The notes beneath the pieces were generated by a model. The model searched no databases, was not told where the DNA came from, and worked only from the letters and a program-made list of their open reading frames with translations. Below are positions 42,475 to 51,258 of a DNA stretch of 64,000 nucleotides, piece by piece. The translations under genes were made by a program, and so were the position numbers. Position 1 is the stretch's first letter, and the number at the start of each line of letters is the position of its first letter. This DNA is from Flavobacteriales bacterium (GTDB taxonomy: Bacteria; Bacteroidota; Bacteroidia; Flavobacteriales_F; PHOS-HE28), in assembly GCA_016788295.1 (NCBI GenBank), contig JAEUSY010000051.1, positions 1-64,000 on the forward strand. Direction: 5' to 3'.

Positions 42475-42771
42475 TTACTCGCGAACCATCACATACCTGA
42501 ACCGCAGGTCCATCTCCCTGCCATCGAGCGTGTCCAGCATGGCGGGCGTAACGCGCAGCGGGTGGAGCGTGGCGCCATCGGGACCTTGCATAATGCGCAG
42601 CCACTCCTCCCAGGCGATGCCCTTGGGCTGGTTGGCGCGCAGCACGGCAAGGGTAACCGCATTGAGCGGTTCATGCGGCGCTGGTATCCGGGGCGATTGA
42701 GGCGGTGTTTGCGCAACCGCAAGAAACGGCAGCAGCAGTGATAGTACGAGTATGGTTGCGCGCGTGCTCAT
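42475..42771 (-). CDS. Small secreted hypothetical protein
   Basis: 98 residues. A signal peptide (about 1-20, ending LAVAQ) is followed by a Pro-rich stretch (TPPQSPRIPAPHEPL) and a short helical region (AWEEWLRIMQGPDG). No domain recognised. It overlaps the T9SS gene upstream by 4 bases and is followed by nif3 after 55 bases. Probably translated as the last member of the secreted-protein operon. Confidence 0.72.
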   Translation of the reverse strand: MSTRATILVLSLLLPFLAVAQTPPQSPRIPAPHEPLNAVTLAVLRANQPKGIAWEEWLRIMQGPDGATLHPLRVTPAMLDTLDGREMDLRFRYVMVRE

Positions 42772-44273
42772 GGCTCGGTGATGATGATGCGCGTGCTCGC
42801 CCGCTGATTACCCCAGCGCAATCGCGCGTGGTACATGCCCGGTGGCGCCTGCAAGTGCACGTTATGCACTGTGCTCCATGCGGGCAGGTGCGCGCGCAGC
42901 ACCACTTGCCCTGCGGCGTTGTACAGGGCCAACTCGCCGGCCTGCGCTTGCGCGGCATAGCCCAAGCTGAACACGCCGCTGCTGGGATTGGGATAAACAC
43001 GCAAGGCAGCAGCCATCTCTTCCTCCCTCACATGGCTGTCGATGCCCAGGCTGTCACACACGCTGCCATCCACCGGCCCCAAGTGGTAGTTGGGGTGGTT
43101 GGGCAGGGAGTTCATGAAATAGCGGGGCAGCTCCACGCCGTGCTGCACCATGCCGCAGTTGAAGCCCGGCAAATCGGGCTCGTTGATCACATGCAAGTGC
43201 AAGGTGCCGTTACCGGTGGCTATGTAGATTTTGCCATCCGGCGCCAGTTGCGCGATGTCGAACATGGTGGCGAAGGGCGGGCTGGGGGAGTAGAAGCCAT
43301 CCCATACGGCGATGGTGACTCGGGAGCTCGCGATGTCCGAGGCCCAGGTGTCGAACTGATAAACATGTTCTACAGAGGACACGTATAGATAGCGGCCGTT
43401 CGGCGAAAAGGCCAAGCCGCCTGCGATGTTGGCATCGTTGATGACTATCCGAAGCGGATTCGAGAGCAGCCCCGTGCAGCGGTCGAAGTCGAAGATATCC
43501 AGGTCGTCACCTTGATTGCCACGGTAACATGCAAAGCGGTCACCTTGCGGGGAGAAGCACGCCTGACCGCCGCTATATTGCCGCTGCTCGCCAATGGACT
43601 GCTGTTGAGCCTCTGAAATACCTGCGGGGGTTACAAGAAGTCGATGGTAAACATTGCTTGCCAACTGCTGGCAAAGCACCCACCAGTCACGGCCATTGGC
43701 ATGTCGCACCGCAGTAATCCTCCCAGCGGCCAAGGTGTCAGTGAGGAGAACGAGATTCTTGCTCACCGCGACCCCAAGACCATTGTTCTGGTTCATGTCA
43801 ACCGTGGTCAGATAGAGACGTTGAGCCGGGGACCCTGGTGTATAAAGGTCAACTGTGTTGTGAATGAGGAAGTAAATTCCGGGAGCTTCTGGCTTTGGCA
43901 GTATCAGGCATGCTTGTGAGATGTGCAATCCCTCCGGGTAATTGCTAGTGTAGTTGCTGGGATTGAGCCCCGTTCCATTCAGCAGCGTATCGCCCAGCGC
44001 ATTGCCCAGGAAGGCTCCGTTGGTGCTGAACTGCAGATTGCCCTCGCTGTCGGTGATGTTGGCGTTCGTGCGGAAGAAGTCGATGACCCGCGTGGCTGGA
44101 GCTACCGAGAGGCTCTCGCTCGTGAAACCGAGATCCACGCCGCCCCAAGGCGGAGGCGATTGGTCCTCGAAGCCGCCGAGCCACAGGTTGCTGCGGGATT
44201 GCGCCACCGCCTGCGGCGCGGAAAGGGTAGTGAAGGCCAAGAGCGCCGCATGAAGAGTTCGGGGAGTGTTCAT
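42768..44273 (-). CDS. Secreted T9SS type A protein, beta-propeller-like
   Basis: 501 residues from the ATG at 44271-44273. The signal peptide ends in APQAVAQ. Repeated blades such as FSPQGDRFACYRGNQGDDLD and LAFSPNGRYLYVSSVEHVYQ and LAPDGKIYIATGNG indicate a WD40-like or lactonase-type propeller. The last 80 residues start YPNPSSGVFSLGYA and are a T9SS type A sorting domain. It begins 26 bases after the giant gene's stop and may be co-transcribed with it, so it could share that gene's regulation. Ligand unknown. Confidence 0.85.
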   Translation of the reverse strand: MNTPRTLHAALLAFTTLSAPQAVAQSRSNLWLGGFEDQSPPPWGGVDLGFTSESLSVAPATRVIDFFRTNANITDSEGNLQFSTNGAFLGNALGDTLLNGTGLNPSNYTSNYPEGLHISQACLILPKPEAPGIYFLIHNTVDLYTPGSPAQRLYLTTVDMNQNNGLGVAVSKNLVLLTDTLAAGRITAVRHANGRDWWVLCQQLASNVYHRLLVTPAGISEAQQQSIGEQRQYSGGQACFSPQGDRFACYRGNQGDDLDIFDFDRCTGLLSNPLRIVINDANIAGGLAFSPNGRYLYVSSVEHVYQFDTWASDIASSRVTIAVWDGFYSPSPPFATMFDIAQLAPDGKIYIATGNGTLHLHVINEPDLPGFNCGMVQHGVELPRYFMNSLPNHPNYHLGPVDGSVCDSLGIDSHVREEEMAAALRVYPNPSSGVFSLGYAAQAQAGELALYNAAGQVVLRAHLPAWSTVHNVHLQAPPGMYHARLRWGNQRASTRIIITEP

Positions 44274-44298
44274 GCGGCGCATCATGGCAGAATCGTGG

Positions 44299-47200
44299 TT
44301 AGCGGACAATGGTCAGCTTGCCGCTGCAAAGGTTGCCAGAAGGCCCGCGCACCTGATAGTGATAGAGCGCTGGCGCCAAACCGCTTGTGCTGAATGCGAA
44401 GCGGGTTGCGCCACCGGGCACGGTCAGGCTCATCACCTCAGCTCCAAGCGCGTCGAAGACCACGAAGGCTATGCTCTCTTTCTGCTCTTCGCTTAGCATC
44501 AAGGTGGCTTCATCCACTGCGGGGTTGGGCACCACCAGGCCGCTCACCGTGGCTTGGGTTGCTCTGCTCTTGATCACATAGCCATCCTGCAAGCAGAGCG
44601 TGGCATCGTCGTAGGCCGCGGTGGCGTCGATCAGCTGGTAGAGGGCCCTTGCCTTGAACACGGCATTGCCGCCGCTGAGCGGGCATTGGTTCGCGATCTC
44701 GTGGAGCGTGGCGGCTTGGGCTGCGATGAAGCGGTCCACATCCTTGCCGATGGTGGCCAGGTGGATCTCGGTAACGGCCTTCTCGTTCGCTTCGATCAAC
44801 GCGCTGGTGCCAATGGCGGCGTTGGCCTGCTTCACGTTCTCGGCGGTGAGCGCTTTGGTGGTGCTGGCCAGGGTGAGGGCCGTAGTCTGGTAGGCCGTGA
44901 GCGCGGCAAGCGATTGCCGGTAGCCAGCGATGCTGCTCAGCAAGGCCGTACGCTGCCCAGGGGTGAGCGCAGGATCGGCCAATTGCTCCAAGGCATCGCG
45001 CATCAGCTCGAGGGTGGCCTCGGCCTGCACGCGGTTGGCTTGCAGCTGATCGGCCACCGTGTTGTCCAAGTCGTAGAGCCCCAGTTGCTCATCGGCCACC
45101 TCCTTCAGCGCTGCGATGGTGCTTCCGGCCAGCGCGTCGTAGAAATCCTGCAGGTCGGCTTCCCCGGCGAGCAGTTCCGGATGGTCGTGCAGCTTGGCGT
45201 ACAACTCGCCCTTCAATATCCAACGGCTCTCCGGGGTGTAGGGGTTGTTCTCGATCGCCCCGCTCCGCACGCGCTCATCCAATTCCGTGAGGCAGCCCTC
45301 GCAGCGCTCCGCGTAGAACTGGTTGCAGTAGTTCGCTTCACCGTCGGGCTCGCATTCGTAGTTGCTTCCGCTCGTGGTTGGCTGGAACCACAGCTGTGGC
45401 GACCACGACGGCGGTTGCGTATTGCCACCGCCGATGATGGCCGGGTTGTAGGTGAAGGGGTCGAACTCGGCTAAGGGATGCTGGTTCAACGCCCCCAGGC
45501 CATTGGCACCCACGGGCTGGTCATGCCAGAGGTTGCCCTTAAGCGCTTGCGGATCGATGATGGCGGTTGGCCCCAGGTGCAGGCCCCAGCGGTGCTTGCG
45601 CATGCGGTTGCCGCGCACATCGGTGTCGCTGGCAACGCCGTTGAAGAGCAGGCCGTTGGTGGTCCAGTTCATGTCGTTACAGCTGATCAGCGGCCTGCTG
45701 CCCATGAAATTGCGGATCGCGGCCTGCCTGTCGTTGATCAGGTTGTGGTCCGTGCTGGAGATGGTGTTGCAGCTCACCTCGGTTTTGTTGCAGCCATCGA
45801 GCTGCACGCCGTACTGGTTGAAGATGTTATTCACCATGTTCAACTGATTGTCGGCAACCAGCCAGTAATCGGACGCCAGCAGATTGAAACCCGTACGAGA
45901 GGAAGCCAACGGCAGGTAGTGGATGTAATTGTTGCGTATCACCGAGCTGGGGTTGTTGTAATTGCCCTCGGCTACGTTGATGCCGATATAGCCTGGGCAG
46001 TTGTTCGCGCAGGGGTCATCGCCAAAGGTGATGCTGTTGTATTGGATCAGGATGTGATCAGCGCCGTCGTTGGCCAGGAGATCGATGCCATTGAGCTTGG
46101 TGCGCACCTTGTTGTTCAGTACTTCAACGCCGCGATAGCCGCTACGCATGATGCGGTGTGCCGTACCCATCTCTGCCATGTGATTATCGCGCGATAGCAC
46201 GTTCATGAAGGCGGTGTGAACACCCCAGCGGCACCGCTCGAAGTTGGGTGCGGCCATCATTCCAGGCCCAACCTGCTTCAGGGTGTACCATCCCTTACCG
46301 CCATAGGCGTTGATGGCGGCGCCATTGCCGTCCAGTTCATCGTAGGCGGCATCGGGTTGGATGTCTGAGAAGTGGCAGTCCGTCACTTTGAGGTCGCATT
46401 GGTTGGCCACGATGCCGTTGCTCAGGTCGCGGATGGTGTTTCCGCCGCTGAAGTCGAGGTACATGTCGTTGAGGTCGAGCGCAGCATAGCCTTGCGCGCC
46501 CAGCACGCTCTGCTGGTTGGCATAAGGCTGTGCCAGCGGTCCCTCAGCGTGGAACTCGGTGCTGCTCACGGCGATGCTCACGCCGTTGAACTGGCCTTGC
46601 TCGGGCACGCAGATGCCCACGCGGTTGTTGGTGAACTCGGAGCTGCTGACCGAGAGGATGGCACTGTTCAGGGCCATCAGCGCATGCTCCGCATCAGCGA
46701 TGCTCGAATTGTCCATGACCACGATGCAGCCATCGTCTGCGGTGATGCCCTTCCAAAAGACACCGTTGCACGCTGCGAAGGAACTGTTCACGATGCGCAG
46801 GTAGCGTCCGGGCTCCATCACCACATGAGCGCCAGGCGCCACAGTCACCTCCGCGCTCGCGAAGGTCACGTCCTGGTCGAGGGTGAAATCGCCCTGGATG
46901 GCCACCGGGCCGCTGAAGAACGAGCCTACAACACTTGCGGCGCTGCCCGCCGGAATGATAGTGGCGGCCTCGCAGCAGGGGTAAATGTTCACTTGCTGGG
47001 TGCTGGTGTTGGCCACGCCGTTGAGGATCACGGTGTGCGTGATGGTGTAGGTGCCGGGCGGGGCTGGCGGAACGGGCTGCGGCAAGGGCCAGCCGGTGTT
47101 CTCGGTGATGGCGGCGAAGTAGTCGTAGGTGTAGCTCAGGGCTCCATTGATGGGCGTGGTGCGCTCATCGCCCCAAGTCCAGATGTGGATGGCGGCGGGG

Positions 47201-50200
47201 TCTTGCAGGGCGCCTTCAACGTGTACGGTGCCGGTGCAGGGGTCAACCACGGCAGTGAACTCGGCATCGGGGTATTCGATATCAGGGCAGTTGGTGAGGG
47301 TGATGTTGGCGGCCTGGGTCAAGAAGCCCGGATAATCCACCTCATTGCCTTGGCCGTCGAACACTGTGGTGAAGTTCAGCAGCCCCGCGTTGCCAATGGT
47401 GCCGGTGTAGAACACGTTCATGTCGGCGGGAGGCGCGCTGGTAAAGGTGAAGGGGAGGCAGGCCACCACGCCATAGCCGTAAAACTGCACAGGATTCAGG
47501 AACTCGATGTACACGGGCACCATGCTCAATCCGTATGGGAAGCCTTGGGATAGCCAACTGGGCGCGGAGATAGGCGTGCCGATGGAACTCGTGACGGTGT
47601 TGATCGCATAGGTGCTCGAAAGGCCGCTCAGGTCGCTTGGTGGGCTCAGGAAGCTTGGGTAGATCCAGTAGTACTGCACAGCGCCCACATCGGGTACCAC
47701 ACTGTGGTAGCCGAGGCAGAGCGTCACGGGGCCTTCCGTGCAATCGCCGGCCCCCGCCACCACCAAGGGGCAACCTTCAAGGATCTCCACGATGGCATTG
47801 TCCCATGGGTCGTCGTTGCCCGGGCCATCCACATGCACCTCATTCAAGTAGGTGCCCAGGTTGGTGAAGAAGCCCATGTAGGTGTAGCTCACGCAGCCCG
47901 GTGCCAGGTCGATGGTGACGCCGCTGCCCGCCAACGGGTTGGTGTAGCCCGGCCATAGCTGGAAGTACTGCGGGTTGCCGAAGACGATGGCGTCGGTGAT
48001 GGTGACGCCGGCGATAGTGCTACTGGTGTTGTTGCACACCGTAATGGTGTAGGCGACGGGCGAGCCTGCGTAGGTCTGCGCGGTGGAGACGGTCTTCTCG
48101 ACGGTAAGGGGCGGGAGTGGATCCACCGGGGGCTGGCAGAATTGGGCAATGAAGCCGTCGTTGCTCACATTGATGGCGAGTCCCGGATTGCCGAATGTGT
48201 CATCGTAGTAGGCAGGTGAGCCAGGGTTAGCATAGGGGAACGATGCTGTTGCGGTGGCCTTGCTGTGTGTGCCGAGGATGGTGGTGTTCTCAACGGTGCC
48301 GTCGGTGAGCACAACGTCCATGATGCTCGCGGCTTCCGTGCTTTCCTGTCCGCCGAAATAGGTGGACCAGTTGATGTTGTTCATGGAGTTAAACTCCATC
48401 AAGAGGCCGTCACCGAACCAATTGTTCGTGGTTACATCCGGCGCGATGGCGTTCTGCAGGTACCATCCCGGTGGTGCGCTCATCGGGTGCCCTGGGTAGT
48501 AGGTTCGGCCACCCAAGATGCAGCCACCTACTAGAGTGCTCGTGACGGCATTCGCTCTCACTGGAGCGTGCGTTGAGCCCCCGTTGCCACTGGGCGGCAT
48601 CGGGCTGCCGGAAACCTGTGTGGCCCAGAGCAGCGATCGGTTAACTCCCGAAAAGCGAGCGATGGTTCCCACCTCCGAAGTGGATCCGATAGGATCCGTG
48701 TATCCAGAGCCGACTATTGGAAACGTTGGTGGACCACCTGCAACTGGCAATGTGTAACCCGCCAAGTACACATCGCCCGTGACAGGATTGACATCAAGAC
48801 CGTTATCGCCAAGCCGATCTTGCGCGATGCCTCCGAGATAGCTGGACCAGATGCCGAGGCCGTTCACAGAGAACTCGGCCACGAAGAGATCAGACCCGCC
48901 TGCGTTTGCTTGCGAATAGGCGGCGCCCCCACCAAGATTGAACACGGGTAACACTGGGCTCGCGGCATTACCGGCCAGCACGATCTTGTTCGCGATGGCC
49001 TTCACCTCAATGCCATTGTCAGCGCCGCTGCCACCGAAATAGGTGCTCCACACAAGATCCAATTGCTGATCGAACATGGCGATGAACGCATCGAAGCCAC
49101 CGCCGTATGGCAGAACCGAGGCGCCGGGGAGTTGGGCTGCCGGCTGTGGCAAGGTATTGCCTGTGCTGCCGCACGCGACTAGCCTGTACTGTGCGTCGAT
49201 GGCCAGGCCTTGCACGGAATTGACACCATCGCCGAAGAAGGTGGCCCAGGTGCATGCGCCAGTGGCAGGGTCCAACCGGGTGATGAAGCCTTTCTGCAGG
49301 TTGCTGCCAGCCACATCCACGTAGGCCGGCACGGGTGGCTGGCCAGCGATGATGCTGAAGCTGGTCCAGTTCGTCTCACCTCCCATGAACACCTGGAAGC
49401 CAGATGTGACGATAGCGAACCCTTTTGTTGAAGGAGTGCCGCCGGTGGACGTAAGGCCCCCGATATATGTGAGCCACTGCAGGCTTCGGTCGGCTCCGAA
49501 GCCTGCTGCATAGGCCCTTTGCGCGCCACCGCCATAGGCTGCTGTCGTGGTGCCTATTTGTGTTGGAATGGCATTGACGGAATTCGTTGTGCCAGTGATG
49601 AGCAGAGCGCCCGCTCCATCCGTAGCGCCTTGATTGATCACGTCGGGTCCATTGCCTCCGAAGGTCGTGCCCCAGCACAACCCATTGCCGCCACCGCCTC
49701 CTGGCATTCCCTGGCTTTGTACGGGTGCCAAGAGCAAGGGCAGCAGCGGATCATAGGTTCCGGCGATCGGCGCAGCCGTGTTGCCGTTGACATTGAACCC
49801 GGCCTGCCAGCCCAGGCTTTGCATGATCCCGTTGCCGTCCGGCTGATAGGCGAGATTCTGGTGGATGACCAGGGTGTGCCCCACCAAGCCGACGGTGAGG
49901 TTGCCTCCCAAGCCACTGGTGACGGTGGTGGCGCCTTGGAATTGCAGTTGCACCTGTTCCGGATCCGTGCCGGCCTGCACGAGGAAGGTGATGTTCAATC
50001 CATCCGCTTCGGAGGCGATGCTCACGTCGACCCCGGCGAACATTCCGGGGTACCGCAACGTGCCATAGCTTCTCAGCCCAACGCAACCGGTCCCACAGGC
50101 CTCCGAATAACGGTTGGTCAAGTACGGCAGCTGATCAACGCCTGTGGGGTTCGACGTTTGCGCGAGCGGGCCCACGGCGACGATATCCATGCGATGGAAG

Positions 50201-50440
50201 ACGTCGTTCGTCAGCGGGTCGTCGTCGATCTCCTCGTACACAAGCGCGATGCGCGAAGCATCCATCGCGTAGACCTGCCAGCTGCCCGCGGCACCTGCGA
50301 AACGCACCGATGGCAATGCGGTGCCATTCAAATCAGTTACCCAAGAAGTATTCTCCGTAAATCCCCCCCCCCCCCCCCCCAACTTGGGCGTTGGAGCAAA
50401 GGGCGGCGCCGGCAAGGAGGGCAGCAAGATGGTGGCGCAT
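44299..50440 (-). CDS. Giant T9SS surface protein, frame broken by an 18-base G tract (phase-variable candidate)
   Basis: About 2047 codons. Starting at ATG 50438-50440 the frame reads MRHHLAALLAGAALCSNAQ, a complete signal peptide, then Val and a poly-Gly run encoded by the homopolymer. With 18 G it continues IYGEYFLGN and stops after 35 residues. The long frame enters from the other side of the tract as GGFTENTSWVTDLNG and is open to 44299. With 17 or 20 G the two join. Long-frame domains: DUF7948-like (to about 240), SBBP-type beta-propeller repeats (to about 760), DUF11-like (about 780-860, VEKTVSTAQTYAGSP), beta-helix repeats (about 1165-1650), coiled region, and a T9SS type A tail (about 1975-2049). 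The continuous long frame itself can only begin at TTG 50448 with an N-terminus lacking a signal peptide. Confidence 0.85.
50363..50380. repeat. 18-base C/G homopolymer in the giant T9SS gene
   Basis: Eighteen C on the plus strand (G on the coding strand) follow directly after the Gln-Val codons at the predicted signal-peptidase site. It is by far the longest homopolymer in the window. Slipped-strand changes here would switch frame; in-frame changes would only alter glycine count after cleavage, which is likely tolerated. Confidence 0.95.
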
Positions 50441-50538
50441 GTGTTCAAGGTTTTGGATGGTCAGGGTATAGCGAAGCTAATCTTCACTTCGGAGATCCCA
50501 AGCAATCCCTGTACATTTAACAATCAATCCCTATTGCC

Positions 50539-51258
50539 ATGCGCCCACTCCTCGCTGCCATCCTATTCTCCTCAAGTCTGGGCGCAGCAGCCCAGAACAC
50601 CAACACCGTATGCGGCATCCAGGAGTTCTGCTTCTGCTGGGATGATCCCGGGCTGGTGTCCTTCACCTTCCTGCCTTGCCCGGATAGCGTGGTCACCGAT
50701 GTGCACCTCCTGTTCTGCGTTGGACAGATGGCCTTAGTGGATACCCCTGTCATACGTGGCTTCAACGGCGTTGACAACACGGCTGAACCAATGCTTGCGC
50801 TGACAGGGCTATACCTAAACCTATCCAATGTCAGCGGTACCGGTTCAACAGCGATCCATCTGGAGGTCGAATTCCCTGATACCGTTCAGTTGGTCTGCCA
50901 AGCAGGGGACACACCGCCCTGGCGATGGCTGGTGTGGACCGGCTACCCGGCCACATGGCCCGTGGTGGGCGATTGTGCCAGCACGGCCCCCTACTGCCTT
51001 ACCACGGGCATGGCCGCACATCACCCGACACCCAACATCACTGTGCGCGACCGGGAGTTGTTGCTGCCCACATGGCTAAGCAGCGCAGCACGCATCGATC
51101 TTTTCGACACCAGTGGACGAAGCGTGGGGAGTATTCTTGCCCAAGGCCGAACCACCATAGCGCTACCTGTATCCCTTGGTCCGGGCATCTATGTCGCGGT
51201 CCTGGAGAATGGTGGTGTTCGCAGTAGCACGCGCTTCGTACTGGGCGAACAGCGGTGA
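50539..51258 (+). CDS. Secreted T9SS type A protein
   Basis: 239 residues. The signal peptide ends in LGAAAQ. The mature part is Cys-rich early on (CGIQEFCFCWDDPG, LPCPDS, LFCVGQ) and resembles a proprotein convertase P-like or beta-sandwich region (TGLYLNLSNVSGTGSTAIHL). The last 70 residues, from ELLLPTWLSSAARIDLFDTS to STRFVLGEQR, are a T9SS sorting domain. It is divergent from the giant gene and its stop abuts lpxK. Function unknown. Confidence 0.8.
   Translation: MRPLLAAILFSSSLGAAAQNTNTVCGIQEFCFCWDDPGLVSFTFLPCPDSVVTDVHLLFCVGQMALVDTPVIRGFNGVDNTAEPMLALTGLYLNLSNVSGTGSTAIHLEVEFPDTVQLVCQAGDTPPWRWLVWTGYPATWPVVGDCASTAPYCLTTGMAAHHPTPNITVRDRELLLPTWLSSAARIDLFDTSGRSVGSILAQGRTTIALPVSLGPGIYVAVLENGGVRSSTRFVLGEQR

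Follow-up and report, generated by a model that had tools for sequence, protein, structure and literature searches.

Organization of the locus

Within the window, by which we mean the whole stretch of 64,000 nucleotides analysed, a run of 18 guanines on the minus strand (G18, read as C18 on the plus strand) separates a putative signal peptide from the body of a giant surface-type protein (Table 1). Translation from the minus-strand ATG at 50440 gives MRHHLAALLAGAALCSNAQV-GGGGGG-IYGEYFLGN-stop, in which the stop codon lies 9 codons past the tract, or 15 when the glycines are counted. The N-terminal segment has a charged n-region, a hydrophobic core and an A-Q end, and was assessed as a signal peptide by eye, with no predictor. 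The frame of the body sits one phase off that of the signal peptide at G18. When the run was replaced by script with 14 to 22 G, the signal peptide was in frame with the body only at 14, 17 or 20 G, which yielded proteins of 2,045-2,047 amino acids, while 15, 16, 18, 19, 21 and 22 G yielded products of only 33-36 amino acids. A unit change in the run thus toggles the frame of the full-length gene in this simulation. The 2,020-codon open frame past the tract is not due to chance: in 200 shuffles of the body bases the longest open run averaged 155 codons and never exceeded 328.

Table 1. Features of the G18 locus, in positions of the window.
Feature	Position	Strand	Remarks
G18 homopolymer	50363..50380	-	Proposed slipping element; glycine codons just past the predicted signal-peptidase site
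Start codon and signal peptide MRHHLAALLAGAALCSNAQ plus V	50381..50440	-	Signal peptide judged by eye
Giant surface protein body	44299..50362	-	2,020 codons and a stop codon; its open phase is the one that 14, 17 or 20 G lead to
DUF7948 domain (PF25778)	49723..50199	-	Followed by SBBP-type propeller repeats; profile match and alignment
C-terminal module, residues 780-2049	44302..48111	-	DUF11, right-handed beta-helix-like part and tail
T9SS type A sorting tail	44326..44529	-	Under curated cut-offs
Adjacent downstream gene	42768..44285	-	Own signal peptide and T9SS tail (TIGR04183, 39.7 bits)
98-nt intergenic region	50441..50538	.	Common to the divergent plus-strand ORF (50539-51258); presumed promoter region, none identified

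The anatomy and frame arithmetic given in a preliminary description made from the sequence alone therefore held: a signal peptide from ATG 50440 followed by G18, a stop 15 codons later (glycines included), a frame of about 2000 codons in another phase, and the joining of both frames by the loss of one G or the gain of two (14 G joins them as well). One minor correction is that the body frame also runs upstream of the tract, for 33 codons to a TTG at 50448, with no ATG and no signal peptide. Because of this upstream continuation, an ORF finder reports a single ORF of 2,049 amino acids.

The tract stands out from its surroundings. In the window, no other run of G or C is longer than 7 bases, no other run of 14 or more G occurs in the genome (3,781,393 bp searched), and in 775 kb of the same genome only 12 repeats, whatever their type, are of similar strength. 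G18 lies in the interior of its contig, with sensible coding sequence on either side.

The giant protein and its secretion context

The DUF7948 match of the giant protein is above the gathering score (49 bits against a cut-off of 27). A search of solved structures gave no match. Its C-terminal module (1,270 residues) is kept at approximately 45-50% identity in at least a dozen relatives of the genus, which join it to differing N-termini. The preliminary description had also claimed a C-terminal type IX secretion system (T9SS) sorting tail, and this held in part: the tail is recognisable although slightly under the curated cut-offs (TIGR04183, 21.8 bits, cut-off 23; Por_Secre_tail PF18962, 25.8 bits, cut-off 27). 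In the relatives examined, homologues of the adjacent downstream gene (a protein of about 500 residues; 41-64% identity) directly adjoin the C-terminal module, and both genes are thus probably part of the same operon. Together with loci L146-L148 and L161-L176, the region 42768-50440 can be described as a conserved two-gene cassette, a giant T9SS-type protein followed by a secreted T9SS protein of about 510 amino acids, in which the giant protein has an exchangeable N-terminus and a constant C-terminal module.

The genome encodes T9SS machinery (SprA, 2,560 bits; PorT, 178 bits) and at least 150 T9SS tails (TIGR04183). Three further repeats were observed in it (genome G000). A (TC)12.5 array lies a few hundred bases upstream of the PorT gene (NF052311, 178 bits; L180:948-972, G000:C49:38380-38404), leaving room for the possibility that the secretion machinery itself is under repeat control. 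A C11 run mid-way in a 1,801-codon frame of a T9SS cargo protein (L187:10852-10862, G000:C55) could conceivably act as a C-terminal truncation switch. Finally, an array of six GAATGTA units (L201:4060-4101, G000:C49) has no long ORF alongside.

Non-triplet repeats at the 5' ends of homologues

Homologues of the N-terminal half of the protein (DUF7948/propeller) are found genus-wide at approximately 25-33% identity. The 5' ends of 51 of them were read, 49 remaining after near-duplicate G001 copies were dropped, and a homologue was scored as positive when a strong repeat lay within a 360-nt stretch where the open frame begins. A non-triplet repeat with a period of 1, 2, 4, 7 or 8 was present in 20 of the 49 non-redundant homologues, in or beside the signal peptide, and absent from the other 29. 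These repeats comprise homopolymers (C9-C11 and G18), (CT)10-21, the 4-bp GAAG/AAGA, the 7-bp units GCAGAAC, GCATACC, ACGCCCA, CCTTCCG and AAAACGC, and the 8-bp units AGAACCGC and GCAACACC; no unit length is a multiple of three. A paralogue in the own genome (contig C30, locus L069) carries four copies of AGAACCGC straight after its ATG. At equal thresholds, a repeat was found at none of 89 5' ends of other own-genome T9SS cargo genes and in 1 of 381 other own-genome ORFs, and the rest of the homologous ORFs themselves (91.5 kb) contained none. The enrichment at the 5' ends of the homologues relative to the own-genome controls is highly significant (Fisher p about 1e-21). A limit of this test is that its cases are genus-wide but its controls, both cargo and ORFs, were drawn from a single genome, of which they cover 775 kb of stretches and not the entirety.

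The residues encoded by the repeats fit their position in the leader, as judged by eye. The 4-, 7- and 8-bp units mostly encode a basic n-region, (CT)n the SLSLSL core, C runs prolines before the cleavage site, and G18 glycines after it. Arrays near the start codon also occur in two members of the C-terminal-module family, namely C11 in L171 and a 7-bp unit repeated 4.4 times in L174.

The distribution of these repeats is restricted. That they are a general feature of T9SS cargo was rejected on the absence of repeats from the 89 own cargo 5' ends. No repeat was found in out-of-genus homologues among L247-L276, a light sample in which several loci stop short of the gene start, and a class-wide family feature is thus unsupported on this small sample. 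The G18 tract itself is lineage-specific, since no homologue has a G run at that place, and no close orthologue with a matching G run was found in 45 genomes of the genus, the only genomes that family- and order-level searches brought up as well. Searches for near-relative orthologues of L016 or L145 returned only 65-70% matches over long stretches. According to the preliminary description, phase variation would be refuted if homologues lacked the tract and had a fixed frame. The former is true, as no homologue has the G run, but the latter is false: many homologues use a different non-triplet repeat in the same role, and about two thirds or more of these are out of frame.

Two assembly breaks were observed at 5' ends of DUF7948 genes, a contig that ends inside a C22 run (L145, G034:C52) and a scaffold gap inside a GCAGAAC array (L231, G001:C65), as expected if array lengths in the population are mixed.

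Repeats in other surface-protein families of the genus

In a genus survey, a loose signal-peptide-gate test was applied to 96 interior tracts of G or C with at least 11 bases. It scored 25 as signal-peptide-like, compared with 6% at random positions (permutation p 1e-9). This loose criterion lets in a few false hits (L056, L107, L132), and about twenty of the tracts are convincing on reading. Proteins with a tract include a SprB-repeat protein (L049, PF13573), which L062, L089, L121, L122, L134 and L137 resemble by eye, a subtilase (L087), a protein of beta-helix type (L110) that has a sorting tail and a C13 run after the cleavage site, with both of its Pfam hits under the cut-off, and a family for which Pfam gave no match (L084, L085, L109, L119). 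In L045, L065, L111, L114, L117, L135 and L136, poly-G or poly-C pile-ups occur mostly at or near contig ends of other MAGs; these look artefactual and are to be excluded from tract surveys.

Frame states, selection and tract-length differences

In nearly all repeat-bearing homologues the upstream ATG meets the mature frame after 0, 1 or 2 unit changes. Among the 23 loci whose state can be read, 6 are in frame and 17 out, which is consistent with free drift among three phases, under which one third would be in frame (binomial p 0.52), and each of the 17 becomes continuous with a change of one or two units (L232 was worked by hand). An excess of out-of-frame loci is also what decaying genes would give, and in this respect counts against a switch. 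Genes in the off state retain 500-2,000 open codons. Gene pairs whose members mostly have an out-of-frame consensus in the assemblies gave dN/dS values of 0.16 for L010/L175 (both out of frame), 0.16 for L121/L122 and 0.16-0.60 in the others, and this purifying selection indicates that the out-of-frame genes are not long dead. One DUF7948 paralogue of the own genome (L068, G000:C57, about 60.0 kb) has a signal peptide, MKNLLTLLAFSLVS, that is out of frame with its 820-codon body, and there is no long repeat at this frame break.

A difference in tract length is established at one homologous locus in two near-identical genomes. The signal-peptide C run of one homologue is C9 (in frame, on) in G001 and C11 (out of frame, off) in G002, a one-contig genome; the flanks are 99.1% identical over 3.7 kb, and C9/C11 is the only indel there. 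Both copies (L020 and L070) share an additional frame change in the DUF7948 region, downstream of C9/C11, and because of this break the gene may not be intact in either genome. Orthologous tracts also differ in G006 and G041 (G12 versus G21, in a gene 95% identical) and in G016 and G030 ((TC)21.5 versus (TC)13.5). In the strain pair G032/G034 no common repeat locus was found, and the ORF difference between these strains is due to a substitution and not to an indel. Length variation of G18 itself is inferred by comparison with such loci.

Proposed mechanism and alternative explanations

The G18 locus is probably a simple-sequence contingency locus subject to slipped-strand phase variation. This reading, already put forward in the preliminary description, is supported and has been much strengthened by comparative evidence, not by reads or a second strain. 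Points against it are the lineage-specific nature of the tract, the lack of repeats in 29 of the 49 homologues, the sub-cut-off score of the T9SS tail and a signal peptide recognised only by eye. In the proposed model, replication slippage in G18 would alter its length and produce descendants in three phases. One of these (14, 17, 20 G and so on) would put the 2,020-codon body in frame with the signal peptide, and the joined protein should then take the Sec and subsequently the type IX route to the surface, while the other two would stop at 33-36 codons and give no product. As the run lies just past the cleavage site, a varying glycine count is proposed to be tolerated. Slippage at G18 itself, mixed populations and reversible switching are inferred, as are secretion, surface display and any benefit of the protein.

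Three other explanations have to be weighed, all of which are very unlikely. One is a sequencing or assembly artefact, with 17 or 20 G in reality, or with a G run created by base-calling, so that the gene is in fact in frame. Long homopolymers are indeed error-prone, the assembled 18 may be off by one base or more, and several other MAGs of the genus have artefactual-looking poly-G at contig ends. However, G18 is unique in its genome and lies inside a contig between sensible stretches of coding sequence. Even at 17 or 20 G, a genuine run would be prone to slippage, and the dinucleotide, 4-, 7- and 8-bp arrays of relatives are not corrupted in this way by base-callers. Given the units of 2, 4, 7 and 8 bp in relatives, read error, which the preliminary description considered the main alternative, is unlikely to be the general cause. 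Whether the tract has exactly 18 G, and with it the OFF state, remains uncertain.

It could also be argued that the gene is a decaying pseudogene, killed by a frameshift to which the run is incidental. The out-of-frame consensus, the repeat-less frame break of the paralogue L068 and the stop codons in the relatives L164 and L167 favour this view. Against it stand the 2,020 open codons, compared with at most 328 in shuffles, the dN/dS of 0.16-0.6 in out-of-frame relatives, and the recurrence of the disruption at the leader repeat in many independent genes, which is not random. Lastly, programmed slippage of the RNA polymerase or the ribosome on the G run would produce a fixed mixture of frames in each cell with no DNA switch. 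Long homopolymers are able to cause RNA-polymerase slippage, and runs of eight or more are typical of programmed transcriptional realignment (PMC3711429). Yet this explanation does not account for the relatives that have 2-, 4-, 7- and 8-bp arrays in that position, nor for the differing DNA lengths in G001 and G002. Slippage of the RNA polymerase or ribosome at G18 remains conceivable as a source of leakiness.

Under slipped-strand phase variation, G18 would be one case of a genus-wide habit, in which slippage-prone repeats that shift the frame lie downstream of the start codon and ahead of the mature protein in surface-protein genes. A bolder reading, more likely than not, is that this whole uncultured genus controls its surface coat by repeat slippage in signal-peptide coding sequence, each cell showing one combination of many. 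As parts of this reading, repeats with no fewer than five different unit lengths appear to have originated independently in several families unrelated to one another (DUF7948 propellers, SprB-repeat, subtilase and beta-helix), and the residues encoded by the repeats suit, by eye, their site in the leader. If real, it would let an uncultured lineage randomise its secreted surface through the signal peptide, perhaps, and this is speculation, against phages, predators or competitors. It would also mean that gene callers miss or mis-start such genes: at about three quarters of the loci whose state can be read, the consensus is out of frame.

Comparison with known phase-variable systems

Repeat-based phase variation is mainly known in host-adapted pathogens, and Bacteroidota are chiefly known for DNA inversion. 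Among open-access papers that deal with both type IX secretion and phase variation, a search found none on repeat-switched cargo, as judged by title and abstract. The invertible promoters of Bacteroidota, e.g., those of the Bacteroides fragilis capsules (PMC3090145), resemble the proposed system in providing reversible surface variation in the same phylum. Capsule variation in B. fragilis is a site-specific DNA inversion and not slippage in a coding repeat.

The opa genes of Neisseria contain CTCTT repeats in the leader-peptide coding sequence and switch at approximately 1e-3 per cell per generation (PMC3745409). The likeness lies in a non-triplet leader repeat in a surface-protein family, the copy number of which joins or breaks the frame, and in the independent switching of many paralogues, which is inferred for the loci described here. 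However, Opa variation involves one pentanucleotide and one family in host-adapted pathogens, whereas the loci described here have units of 1, 2, 4, 7 and 8 bp in several unrelated families of uncultured Flavobacteriales, with type IX cargo-like products, and switching has not been shown. Phase-variable surface genes with poly-G or poly-C tracts are known in Campylobacter, Neisseria (pilC and hpuA/hmbR) and Treponema (tprL) (PMC8355987, PMC5320596, PMC3786947, PMC7864442). Like G18, their tracts are runs of G or C, about 8-20 bases long, that lie within or ahead of surface-protein genes and shift frame or expression; they differ from it in phylum and secretion route, and in that the G18 tract lies just past the predicted cleavage site of a protein of about 2,050 residues. 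By analogy, the G18 locus would work like opa and the poly-G/C loci of Neisseria and Campylobacter, to which it is not homologous.
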